Source of the DNA: a virus
Virus record (IMG/VR): IMGVR_UViG_3300037014_000313
Location: 1 to 60,464 of that record
DNA length: 60,464 bases
Reading direction: 5' to 3' (one strand)
The notes beneath the pieces are model-generated. The model saw only the letters and a program-made list of their open reading frames with translations, made no database searches and was not told the origin of the DNA. Shown piece by piece: positions 874 to 3,608 of this stretch (position 1 is the stretch's first letter; each line of letters opens with the position of its first letter). The position numbers were made by a program, and so were the translations under genes.

Positions 874-1028
874 AAAGCACGAAGCGTAGAAAAGCGCAAG
901 AGTGTTGCATCTGCATTAGCAAGCGAGGGTTGCTTGGGCTATGTAAAAGTGGCGTGGGATACCCCCACCACAAGAGATGCTGCATGGCACCGTCAGAGTG
1001 GCGCGTGCTGAGTCGAGGTGCCAAGTGA
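870..1028 (+). CDS. Small Cys-rich basic protein (52 aa)
   Basis: The GTG start at 870 overlaps the previous stop and the gene ends by overlapping the next GTG. The product is strongly basic with two clusters of cysteines (ECCICISKRG and KRCCMAP), compatible with one small metal-binding site. It is the first of three short Cys-rich genes chained by four-base GTGA overlaps. Function unknown. Confidence 0.6.
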   Translation: MKSTKRRKAQECCICISKRGLLGLCKSGVGYPHHKRCCMAPSEWRVLSRGAK

Positions 1029-1210
1029 GCCGGAAGAAACGGTCGTGCGCGAATTGCGGACACCAACGTGCCGCGCACCAGTACGGCCAGTGCGTGTACA
1101 ATCACGGGAGATGCTTCTGCCCGTTCTACAAAGAGCGTCCATCGAGGGCGAAGCTAACCCCGAGGGAGTTTCTATTGCGGTATGCAGACCAAATACGGAG
1201 GGAAACGTGA
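1025..1210 (+). CDS. Zinc-ribbon-like small protein, copy 1 (61 aa)
   Basis: GTG start in a GTGA overlap with the upstream stop. The protein has CANCGHQ, then QCVYNHGRCFCPFY, a Cys4/His arrangement typical of a small zinc finger, and a basic C-terminal helix. It shares KRSCANCG and YKERPSRA-type segments with the next protein, so the two are tandem paralogues. Function unknown; DNA, RNA or protein binding is plausible. Confidence 0.65.
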   Translation: MSRKKRSCANCGHQRAAHQYGQCVYNHGRCFCPFYKERPSRAKLTPREFLLRYADQIRRET

Positions 1211-1383
1211 AACGGTCGTGCGCGAATTGTGGGCGTAGTCCGGCTAATCATGGACGGGACTATGGCGCGAATTGTCAGACCTACCGCGAGCGTCCGTCGA
1301 GGGCTGGATGCAGGGAGTGGGGCTGCCCTCTGTGCAAAGCCGTGGTCAATGGCGTGCTGGGTCCGAAACGTAAGAAGATTTGA
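1207..1383 (+). CDS. Zinc-ribbon-like small protein, copy 2 (58 aa)
   Basis: GTG start overlapping the previous stop. It begins VKRSCANCGRSPANHG and continues with YRERPSRAGC and GCPLCK, giving two CxxC knuckles. It is clearly related to the preceding protein in its N-terminal knuckle and its ERPSRA segment. It ends 9 bases before the methyltransferase gene. Function unknown. Confidence 0.65.
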   Translation: MKRSCANCGRSPANHGRDYGANCQTYRERPSRAGCREWGCPLCKAVVNGVLGPKRKKI

Positions 1384-1392
1384 TCTGCGAAA

Positions 1393-2985
1393 ATGAACTA
1401 CTACAACGACAACGATAAATCCTGTTGCGCTTGGTTGCGCGAACTCATCAAGGACGGGTTGATCCCAGAGGGAGATGTAGATGGCAGAAGCATCACGGAA
1501 GTACGAGCAGAAGACCTTCGATCCTACGATCAATGTCACTTCTTCGCCGGGATCGGCGGCTGGAGTCTCGCCCTCAAACTCGCGGGATGGGAAGACAAAG
1601 CTTGGACCGGCTCCTGCCCCTGCCAGCCCTTCAGCACCGCAGGCAAGGGCAAAGGCGAAGCCGATGAGCGTCACCTATGGCCCGCTTTTTTCAAGCTCAT
1701 CAAAGAGTGCCACCCTGGAACTGTCTTTGGTGAACAAGTTGCAGCAGCTATTGCGTATGGGTGGCTCGATGGAGTATTCGCAGACCTGGAAGGAGAAGAT
1801 TACTCCTGCGGGGCGGCAGTATTGGGCGCACACAGCGTCGGGGCACCGCACATCAGGCAGAGACTTTACTGGGTGGCACACTCCGAGAGTGGACGGCGGC
1901 AGGGAGAAATCGGAGACATTCCTGAAAAGGAACCCCAATCGTGGAGCGTACTGCACCAGCGGATTGGGTGCAGAAGCGAAGTTGGCAGGGTGGCCGACGC
2001 CGAACGCAAACAAGAACACGAAGAACAGCAAAGACCCAAAGTGCATGAAGGAGGGGGGAGTACAGACATCGCTGGCGGATGCGACGCATCTGGCCGGCTG
2101 GCCGACCGCTTCAAGTCGGGACTGGAAGGACACGCCGGGGATGGACACGAAGGGGACGAACCCAGACGGGACAGAGAGGATACGGCTGGACCAGCTTCCG
2201 CGAGTCGCGCACCAGGTTGGAACGGCCCCTGCGTCTGGTGGCCCTGCCGGGACGGGGTCAGGCGACGTATACCGGCTGAATCCGTTTTTCAGTTTACATT
2301 TGATGGGATTTCCGGTATCATGGGGGCTGGCTGGATTGAGGTCGTTTCTAAAATCAAAGAGGTGATTTATGGGAAGAAAGCCAACCCCGACACCGATAAA
2401 GCGCTGCGGGAGGTGTGGTGTTCTGTTGCAAAGACATCGCTACAATGGAACGCTGGAAGACAATTCGAGATTCAAGAGCCGGAAATATTGCTCCTTGCGC
2501 TGTGCCAACTCTCGCGGGATACGGAGCCAGAGCGCGTCGGCCCAAAGAAGGATTTCTCATTCCTGCGTGAAGCCACAATGCGAATCCTGTGGTTCAACGC
2601 ATCGCCTTCACGTTCATCATATCAACGGGAATTGGAGAGACCAGGGACCGGAGAACCTAAAAACCCTCTGCATTCGTTGTCATCTTGGATTGCACAACAG
2701 GATGGAAAGGAAGTGCGCTCATTGCTCCAACAAGTCCAGGAAGCACGGGATGTGTCAGAGGCATTTCCAGAGGTGGAAAAGACATGGCGATCCGTTTTTG
2801 GTGAGGAGGCGAAAGTCAGGGACGCCGCACGGTACAAGGCTGGTAAGGGTGCAATCGTAGCCACGAACTGTTTCCCGCTGGCCGTCAATGTTCCCGGCAG
2901 AGTGGGCCTCCTCCGGGGCGCGGGCAATGCAATCGTCCCGCCGCTCGCGGCGGAATTCGTGAAAGCGTTTATGGAGTCATCGTAA
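1393..2985 (+). CDS. dcm: DNA cytosine-5 methyltransferase with an internal insertion (530 aa)
   Basis: It transfers a methyl group from S-adenosylmethionine to cytosine in DNA. Visible motifs: FAGIGGWSLALKLAGW (motif I, residues 51-66), SCPCQPFSTAGKGKG (motif IV, Pro-Cys nucleophile, 74-88), GEQV (113-116) in the place of ENV, and APHIRQRLYWVA (motif VIII, 151-162). The C-terminal GAGNAIVPPLAAEFVKAF is motif X. Phage relatives run from a CRDG segment (here 286-289) almost directly into the FPLA..VPGRVG segment. Here about 190 residues intervene, and they coincide with an out-of-frame HNH gene. The frame nevertheless stays open. A second conserved frame overlaps residues about 30-320. Activity is plausible but the insertion may impair it. 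Confidence 0.85.
   Translation: MNYYNDNDKSCCAWLRELIKDGLIPEGDVDGRSITEVRAEDLRSYDQCHFFAGIGGWSLALKLAGWEDKAWTGSCPCQPFSTAGKGKGEADERHLWPAFFKLIKECHPGTVFGEQVAAAIAYGWLDGVFADLEGEDYSCGAAVLGAHSVGAPHIRQRLYWVAHSESGRRQGEIGDIPEKEPQSWSVLHQRIGCRSEVGRVADAERKQEHEEQQRPKVHEGGGSTDIAGGCDASGRLADRFKSGLEGHAGDGHEGDEPRRDREDTAGPASASRAPGWNGPCVWWPCRDGVRRRIPAESVFQFTFDGISGIMGAGWIEVVSKIKEVIYGKKANPDTDKALREVWCSVAKTSLQWNAGRQFEIQEPEILLLALCQLSRDTEPERVGPKKDFSFLREATMRILWFNASPSRSSYQRELERPGTGEPKNPLHSLSSWIAQQDGKEVRSLLQQVQEARDVSEAFPEVEKTWRSVFGEEAKVRDAARYKAGKGAIVATNCFPLAVNVPGRVGLLRGAGNAIVPPLAAEFVKAFMESS
1481..2365 (+). CDS. Overprinted WPTP-motif protein in a second frame of the methyltransferase gene (294 aa)
   Basis: It is read in a different frame from the methyltransferase, with its own AGAGGGAG site and ATG. 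The product has TWKEKITPAGRQYW, then repeated GW(P/H)TP motifs (GWHTPRV, GWPTPNAN, GWPTASSRDWK) and a C-terminal YRLNPFFSLHLMGFPVSW. From memory, phage genomes often contain proteins with this motif order near cytosine methyltransferases. In this gene the methyltransferase VADA-type motifs and the WPTP motifs come from the same bases. It may be a genuine overlapping gene or a conserved shadow frame; the clean start and the retained C-terminus favour a gene. Function unknown. Confidence 0.5.
   Translation: MAEASRKYEQKTFDPTINVTSSPGSAAGVSPSNSRDGKTKLGPAPAPASPSAPQARAKAKPMSVTYGPLFSSSSKSATLELSLVNKLQQLLRMGGSMEYSQTWKEKITPAGRQYWAHTASGHRTSGRDFTGWHTPRVDGGREKSETFLKRNPNRGAYCTSGLGAEAKLAGWPTPNANKNTKNSKDPKCMKEGGVQTSLADATHLAGWPTASSRDWKDTPGMDTKGTNPDGTERIRLDQLPRVAHQVGTAPASGGPAGTGSGDVYRLNPFFSLHLMGFPVSWGLAGLRSFLKSKR
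2369..2860 (+). CDS. HNH homing-type endonuclease (163 aa)
   Basis: An N-terminal zinc knuckle (CGRCGVLL, then YCSLRCAN) precedes the HNH core: CESCGSTHRLHVHHINGNW (residues 71-89), PENLKTLCIRCHLGLHN (94-110) with paired cysteines C71/C74 and C101/C104, and histidines at 83-84 and 105/109. A further CAHC and HGMCQRHFQRW segment follows. The gene lies wholly inside the cytosine methyltransferase ORF in another frame and has its own GAGGTG site. It looks like a mobile HNH gene. The insertion is barely larger than the HNH gene, too small for a full group I intron. Confidence 0.85.
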   Translation: MGRKPTPTPIKRCGRCGVLLQRHRYNGTLEDNSRFKSRKYCSLRCANSRGIRSQSASAQRRISHSCVKPQCESCGSTHRLHVHHINGNWRDQGPENLKTLCIRCHLGLHNRMERKCAHCSNKSRKHGMCQRHFQRWKRHGDPFLVRRRKSGTPHGTRLVRVQS

Positions 2986-3002
2986 GATAAAACGAGGACA
3001 CC

Positions 3003-3581
3003 GTGAGAGTCCTGGTGGCGTGCGAGTTCAGCGGGATCGTTCGGGAGGCGTTTCGCATAATTGGGCATGAAGCATACTCATGCGACTTGCTGGCTACGGA
3101 GATTCCGGGGCATCACTACCAAGAGGATGTTTTTAGGGTTATTGACAAAGGTTGGGACTTGATGATTGCCCACCCGCCCTGTACGCACTTGGCCGTAAGC
3201 GGGGCGAGGTACTTCAGCCAGAAGCTGGAGAAACAGCTTGAAGCGTTGGAGTTTGTGCGAATGCTTCTTGATGCGCCGATCCCGCGTATCTGCCTTGAGA
3301 ATCCCGTGTCCATCATCAGCACCAGGATTCGCAAGCCGGATCAAATCATCCAGCCGTGGATGTTCGGTCATCCAGAGTCAAAGGCAACGTGCTTGTGGCT
3401 CAAGAATCTACCGAAGCTGAAGCCGACGAACGTCATTGAGAAGCCTTCATGCGGGCATTGGGATAACCAGACGCCGAGCGGCCAGAACAAGCTTGGGCCG
3501 TCACCGGACAGGGCGAAGAACAGGTCCAAGACGTACCGGGGGATTGCGGACGCAATGGCTAAGCAGTATGGCTGTCTCTGA
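3003..3581 (+). CDS. Second phage-type cytosine DNA methylase-like protein (192 aa)
   Basis: GTG start. MRVLVACEFSGIVREAF at the N-terminus is a Rossmann SAM-binding segment, AHPPCTHLAVSG carries the Pro-Cys motif IV, and ICLENPVSIIS supplies an ENP motif VI. RIRKPDQIIQPWMFGHPES and ATCLWLKNLPKL follow, as in many short phage C5-methylase-like proteins. It lacks the target-recognition domain of full-size enzymes. It may modify phage DNA, but activity is not proven for many of this class. It lies 17 bases after dcm. Confidence 0.8.
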   Translation: MRVLVACEFSGIVREAFRIIGHEAYSCDLLATEIPGHHYQEDVFRVIDKGWDLMIAHPPCTHLAVSGARYFSQKLEKQLEALEFVRMLLDAPIPRICLENPVSIISTRIRKPDQIIQPWMFGHPESKATCLWLKNLPKLKPTNVIEKPSCGHWDNQTPSGQNKLGPSPDRAKNRSKTYRGIADAMAKQYGCL

Positions 3582-3608
3582 AAAATAAGTCGAAGAAAGG
3601 GGTCCGAA

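Follow-up and report, generated by a model that had tools for sequence, protein, structure and literature searches.

In phage lambda, Rz and Rz1 represent a case of a phage gene which is nested in the +1 frame inside another gene, the products of both acting together. The small chain of the methyltransferase M.EcoHK31I is also encoded inside the gene of the large chain, in another frame. The large chain of this enzyme (YGGCCR) comprises motifs I to VIII and X, and its small chain contains motif IX (PMC3404938). M.AquI is a C5-methyltransferase that is split into two chains, alpha and beta, in the variable region (PMC3404938). For a mycobacteriophage methylase, a hidden out-of-frame HNH gene, the ShiLan domain, was described in 2025 (PMC11855218).

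The locus analyzed here lies in a virus record of IMG/VR, the 60,464 bases of which constitute the window; all of its features given below reside on the plus strand. Its predicted large chain, encoded by a frame termed D, has like that of M.EcoHK31I motifs I to VIII and X but no motif IX, which is found in the putative small chain, termed W. As in M.EcoHK31I, the frame of the small chain is nested within that of the large one, here in the +1 phase, and is conserved. The likeness is by description and not by sequence. Unlike M.EcoHK31I, D/W is phage-borne, apparently orphan and part of a much larger family; moreover, an HNH gene is inserted in it and its shared end is split. In M.AquI the small chain holds both motifs IX and X, whereas in D/W motif X belongs to the large and motif IX to the overprinted chain. 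Rz/Rz1 differs from D/W in that its proteins are unrelated and no endonuclease gene is inserted. By analogy, D/W resembles the M.EcoHK31I-type split C5-methyltransferases and may be placed with them. For the locus as a whole we regard it as quite probable that it encodes a two-frame methyltransferase of the M.EcoHK31I kind, in which an HNH insertion has been tolerated by virtue of a second copy of the shared end.

Frame D (1393-2985, 530 aa) encodes a C5-cytosine DNA methyltransferase, the predicted large (alpha) subunit. Profile searches yielded matches to PF00145 (E 1.1e-16), restricted to 66-169 of 324, and to phrog_363 (E 3.5e-68). The catalytic part (1393-1902), which was delimited by sequence and alignment A6 and has a high-confidence fold, includes motif I HFFAGIGGW (1537-1563), motif IV with PCQ (1606-1635), motif VI GEQVA (1729-1743) and motif VIII GAPHIRQRLYWVA (1840-1878). 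Motif X reads RGAGNAIVPP, of which GNAIVP is nearly invariant in alignment A6. In the AlphaFold2 prediction residues 1-160 reached pLDDT values of 81-97, while residues 177-276, opposite W, had values of about 30-36 over most of their length and were predicted to be disordered. According to this model, frame D is without a folded TRD. It stays open across W and the HNH gene, both of which lie in a different phase.

Frame W (1481-2365, 294 aa) is located in the +1 phase of D and is the predicted TRD/motif IX (beta) subunit. Position 1481 is the likely start, the ATG being preceded at a distance of 6 nt by the Shine-Dalgarno-like sequence AGAGGGAG (1467-1474). Residues 8-281 match phrog_1008 (E 7.9e-22), which is likewise labelled 'DNA methyltransferase'. 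W contains the repeats GWHTP (1871-1885), GWPTP (1988-2002) and GWPTAS (2096-2113), where D reads WVAHS, RVADAE and RLADRF, respectively. Its C-terminus is YRLNPFFSLHLMGFPVSW-GLAGLRSFLKSKR-stop, with the invariant motif L-N-P...W-L-M-G-x-P-x-x-W. The motifs and their positions had been predicted correctly, except that W runs 13 residues beyond the ...VSW at which it was thought to end. Used as a tblastn query, W matched 220 viral stretches, 107 phage records and 22 loci in genomes, and in nearly all of these loci D and W are both open at the identical +1 offset. Some deposits annotate both frames, for instance those of Escherichia phage K1G ('C-specific methylase' and a nested 'Mte8-like protein') and of Xanthomonas phage PhiXhv-28.

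A high G+C content together with a conserved methyltransferase containing repeated VADA segments might by mere chance keep stops out of the +1 phase and give it repeats, in which case W would be a spurious ORF. The motifs of W indeed fall exactly on conserved motifs of D, both frames are called 'DNA methyltransferase' in databases, and the loci mostly have 55-70% GC. Since the first set of loci had been chosen by W, the stop test was redone on 77 non-redundant loci ascertained by D alone, and the expected numbers were obtained by synonymous codon shuffles within each gene, which preserve the protein and the codon usage. Only 12 stops were observed in the W phase, where 254 were expected, while the third phase of the same loci disclosed 795 stops against 747 expected. 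A synonymous-constraint profile, computed likewise on D-ascertained loci only, revealed that the synonymous sites of D are constrained mainly across W, namely at codons 106-315 (1708-2337). The excess codon identity at conserved D residues amounts to 0.15-0.51 there and to 0.01-0.06 at codons 1-90, and the rise from about codon 106 is significant against codons 1-105 (Mann-Whitney p 2e-12). W similarity was also above permuted controls (z 2.0-10.6, loci found by D alone), but so was third-phase similarity in most pairs (z 1-11); part of the W signal thus reflects shared nucleotides, a problem of which the stop depletion is free. As this control is not flat, the case for W is based on the stop depletion, the constraint profile, the in-frame homologues and the partition of the two copies of the shared end, the first of which retains motif IX of W while its D reading decays. 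As judged from sequence, W is a second conserved protein and not a chance ORF. The original prediction of a second conserved, overprinted frame therefore withstood the examination of both stops and constraint, and a spurious origin of W, to which we assign hardly any probability, was rejected on account of the synonymous permutation and the in-frame homologues. An apparent decoupling of D and W in loci L052, L069 and L102 turned out to be a shift by one base; it displaces the two frames jointly and is probably a sequencing error or a recent decay.

The identity of W is indicated by Dcm genes of mycobacteriophages (L214, 6344-7513; L215, 3438-4898; L216, 3438-4526), in which the W sequence lies in the frame of D. 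These one-frame proteins (JoeyJr gp71, Hamulus gp68 and ShiLan gp70) possess the same D-type core and, in frame with it, LPTP repeats and the motif IX RLAPAFSEWMMGWPAGW, with no overprinting. They match phrog_363 and phrog_1008 within one frame; in JoeyJr gp71, phrog_1008 extends over residues 177-361 (E 6e-65) and PF00145 across 1-347. A profile of W matched the mycobacteriophage Dcm proteins with E values of 2e-11 to 2e-8, while compact D proteins remained at noise level, and the W sequence LNPxxSxWLMGxPxxW aligns with their in-frame motif IX. Both in location and in residue pattern this segment corresponds to motif IX of C5-methyltransferases. Because the mycobacteriophage proteins carry the W sequence in frame, we take W for the TRD/motif IX half of the enzyme. 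Consequently, the notion of two overprinted genes was right with respect to the overprinting, but W is not an unrelated gene; it would be part of the same methyltransferase. ShiLan gp70 retains a W-like stretch in the +1 phase further upstream (SSWKMWPDIGLWGSIPFSETWPPSGMTRSG), which suggests a frame junction inside the gene.

Most likely, D and W form a single phage methyltransferase as its alpha and its beta subunit, respectively. D would supply the cofactor-binding and catalytic core (motifs I-VIII) as well as motif X, W would contribute target recognition (WPTP repeats) and motif IX (LNPxxSxWLMGxPxxW), and both chains would assemble into one enzyme modifying phage DNA. The monomer model of W has a mean pLDDT of only 63, which would suit a domain whose folding depends on its partner. 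Compared with PDB structures, this model gave no significant match, such as one to a solved M.HhaI-like small domain (Foldseek and VIA-align hits were weak, with E >= 0.12 and Z <= 3.4), and the W profile found 0 matches among PDB sequences.

W would have a ribosome site of its own and be initiated within D, about 30 codons after the D start. Instead of using a start of its own, W might be produced by programmed frameshifting off D, by which motifs I-VIII become fused to the TRD and motif IX. The existence of one-frame fused versions in mycobacteriophages would agree with this, and so would the little constraint on the N-terminal ~75 residues of W, the constrained part of which begins near nt 1708. 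Nevertheless, W starts cluster at D codons 26-40, a start codon is present within codons 20-45 in most loci, and a Shine-Dalgarno-like site precedes the W start in 35 of 64 cases against a background of 16%. We therefore consider frameshifting unlikely and an internal start the better explanation.

The prediction of a nested HNH gene was borne out. An ORF of 163 codons (2369-2860) lies wholly inside D in the phase of W and begins three bases after the W stop. Its product matches PF01844 (E 8e-4, just under the cut-off) and phrog_1271 (E 5.5e-10). The Shine-Dalgarno sequence AAGAGGTG (2357-2364) of the HNH gene overlaps the W stop TGA (2363-2365). Including the window, eight loci of the first superfamily harbor related HNH genes at the same site (L010, L013, L021, L080, L082, L112 and L170 being the others; L013 is the same as L014 and L016, and L112 is Komagataeibacter phage phiKX1). 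The HNH proteins in alignment A5 vary too much for the collection to be scanned with it, and single HNH queries matched few loci. When the HNH codons of the eight loci were synonymously shuffled, 44.6 stops were expected in the D phase and 0 were observed, while the remaining phase contained 32 stops against 35 expected. The HNH amino acid sequence is strongly conserved beyond the level dictated by D (z 10-31 versus D permutation), whereas the D-phase sequence across the HNH gene is weakly conserved (z -1 to 6.5). These data indicate selection for an open D frame and for an intact HNH gene. On the D tree the 8 HNH rows need 8 changes, at least 5 of which are forced by well-supported branches; this scattered distribution would fit homing. 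Translation of W and of the HNH gene, assembly of alpha and beta, methylation and homing are steps that we infer.

The ShiLan domain shares with this insertion the out-of-frame position of the HNH gene within a phage methylase whose frame is stop-free, the scattered distribution, the lack of an intron or intein, and a 5' end of the insert that resembles the 3' flank. Its host differs, however, since ShiLan gp65 has a DPPY motif and is by sequence a methylase of the N6/N4 type, and its HNH gene lies in +2. We rejected gp65 as a further D/W gene, as its +1 stops are at the chance level (23 versus 26.2 expected).

Group I introns commonly carry HNH genes, and the insertion at a conserved motif is intron-like. 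The HNH gene could therefore reside on a self-splicing intron, or the insert could be an intein, so that the mature methyltransferase would be without HNH and the partition of the frames only apparent. However, positions 1000-3600 gave no Rfam match up to E 1. An excised intron needs no open frame, yet D lacks stops throughout the insert in the eight loci and also in an AT-rich Staphylococcus phage (0 versus 11.1 expected). An intein would need the phase of D, but the conserved phase is that of the HNH gene, and neither element was found in the published ShiLan case (PMC11855218). An intron or intein is thus very improbable and was dismissed in view of the missing Rfam match and the open D frame; we favor a nested, separately translated HNH gene.

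In compact genes, one segment encodes both motif IX of W and FPLAHGVPARVG, the lead-in of D to motif X. The window contains this shared end twice. Copy 1 (2276-2323) is read in W as motif IX LNPFFSLHLMGFPVSW, which is kept, and in D as the decayed AESVFQFTFDGISGIM, the D sequence at 2287-2325 being FQFTFDGISGIMG. Copy 2 (2872-2943) is read in D as FPLAVNVPGRVGLL (2872-2913) followed by motif X, both kept, while its W phase reads SRWPSMFPAEW, lies outside any ORF and is decayed. Position-specific scores based on profiles from 101 compact genes (median 50.6 for D and 62.8 for W) were 26.0 for W and -7.9 for D in copy 1, and 6.6 for D and -1.7 for W in copy 2. Across the HNH loci, copy 1 scored 12.8 to 53.0 for W and -14.0 to 14.7 for D, and copy 2 scored -35.1 to 30.1 for D and -59.5 to 11.8 for W. 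The pattern of copy 1 was seen in all eight HNH loci, and motif X was kept in copy 2 every time. In L010, L013, L021 and L112 the FPLA-type stretch of copy 2 is barely recognisable and motif X alone is clear, so the status as a second copy would rest there on homology to the other loci. That each frame keeps its C-terminus from a different copy, as had been proposed, is thus in accordance with the scores. The idea of a step in separating the two frames applies locally, to the last ~20 codons; elsewhere ~880 nt are still overlapping.

The copies differ in their degree of divergence. In the window 12 of 39 bases are identical, and in L170 30 of 51. The W phase of copy 2 still reads LLLMGYPPEWANCAPT and REWLMGFPLGWTACVAS in L170 and L262, though severed from W, and these insertions look recent. 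In L080 a stop precedes the W-phase end of copy 2, and this end is gone in L082, L010 and others.

We propose that a mobile HNH gene inserted at the DNA encoding motif IX of W and the lead-in to motif X of D. Such an insertion would normally destroy the ends of both D and W, but it would be tolerated if the shared end is either supplied or duplicated by the insert. The upstream copy 1 would complete W and its stop, which the HNH ribosome site overlaps, and the downstream copy 2 would complete D, which crosses the HNH gene in another phase and meets no stop there. Once freed from dual coding, the D reading of copy 1 and the W reading of copy 2 would decay.

As to the source of the extra end, whose presence had been predicted, it might have arisen locally when the target site was duplicated in tandem during insertion, and would then not be carried on the HNH element. 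The two copies derive from one kind of segment, and both are still readable in recent cases such as L170. On the other hand, in the eight HNH loci the W tail of copy 1 tracks HNH relatedness (Mantel p 0.0095; for HNH against host the value was 0.30) rather than the relatedness of the host genes (rho -0.31), and a VSWGLxG tail is common to the window, L010 and L082. Because the tail follows the HNH gene and not the host gene, the mobile element probably brought the replacement W end. A plain tandem duplication is therefore at odds with the co-variation of the copy 1 tail and the HNH element, and we hold it to be possible but doubtful. We lean slightly towards a class of mobile HNH genes that is specialised for dual-coded methyltransferases, each bringing a stop-terminated replacement for the W 3' end together with an HNH gene that leaves the opposite phase, used by the host frame, free of stops; the insertion would separate the shared ends, and the series L262, L170, L080, window and L082 would record the decay of the freed frames.

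HNH insertions accompanied by a second copy of the shared end were detected in at least 11 loci, belonging to two methyltransferase superfamilies and two HNH types. A W frame (LNPTWVEWLMGFPxGW) is likewise present in a second, larger and distinct Dcm superfamily of the LFSGIGGFSLGLERAGF type. In 69 of its loci the W phase exhibited 35 stops against 226 expected, and the third phase 545, where 555 were expected. Three loci of this superfamily have an HNH gene at the same site together with a repeated end; the HNH type is unchanged in L212 and L262 and differs in L222. In locus L052 (1290-3140), an HNH gene of another type is found in a D/W gene close to motif VIII, again with a repeated flank; there the upstream copy keeps the D reading (SYSTFAVVLPASFVGAPHIRSRIYF) and the downstream copy the W reading (MSPEYNHQWKEIITPGKRVIPTLRASGRRTSG); further on, D and W share the one-base shift. 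By its sequence, L052 is an independent repeat of the copy-partition pattern. The Staphylococcus phage mentioned above, CUB-EPI_14 (L208, 842-2647, 35% GC), possesses a one-frame Dcm with a related HNH gene nested in +1 (2001-2480). It is without a W frame (29 W-phase stops versus 28.6 expected), and in this single control case no repeated end is visible at the HNH insert. The nested HNH gene is unannotated in the deposited record. Short inserts of about 10-40 codons without an HNH gene were found at the same D site in L089 (2868-4085) and L201 (1492-2517); such inserts are possibly remnants of lost insertions.

Since hidden HNH genes in phage methylases have already been published (PMC11855218), the nested HNH gene is of a known kind. 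What is new is the duplicate of the shared 3' end that accompanies the HNH insertions. Copy 1 preserves W (motif IX and the stop) and copy 2 preserves D (motif X), while the unused frames decay. Our literature search, which did not extend to most subscription papers or to REBASE, found no published description of the phage D/W overlap. Unlike the ShiLan domain, the repeated flank of D/W has an explanation, as it completes a second overlapping gene, and within the D/W family this would account for a hidden-HNH insert that repeats its 3' flank. In D/W, the same DNA specifies the presumed catalytic and target-recognition halves of a single enzyme. Overlaps between genes are generally considered difficult to resolve. 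As the same segment can be seen under both constraints, under that of W only and under that of D only, the cost of dual coding becomes directly measurable, and insertions that repeat the shared end constitute paired natural experiments on it.

The gene pair occurs in hundreds of viral contigs and phage records, in which it is usually annotated as one gene, as the wrong gene or as two redundant 'DNA methyltransferases'. In Komagataeibacter phage phiKX1 (L112, 1474-3120) D is unannotated, and fragments of W and HNH are listed as hypothetical proteins. Directly downstream of D, the window contains an ORF of 192 aa (3003-3581) that matches phrog_757 'DNA methyltransferase' (E 2.6e-69) and no Pfam family; a PPC motif is present (AHPPCTHLAVSGARYF). 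Just upstream of D, two adjacent short Cys-rich segments (977-1210 and 1209-1383) are mutually similar. Their sequences, KKRSCANCGH...CPFYKERPSRAK and VKRSCANCGR...CQTYRERPSRAG, look as if a short segment had been duplicated in tandem.
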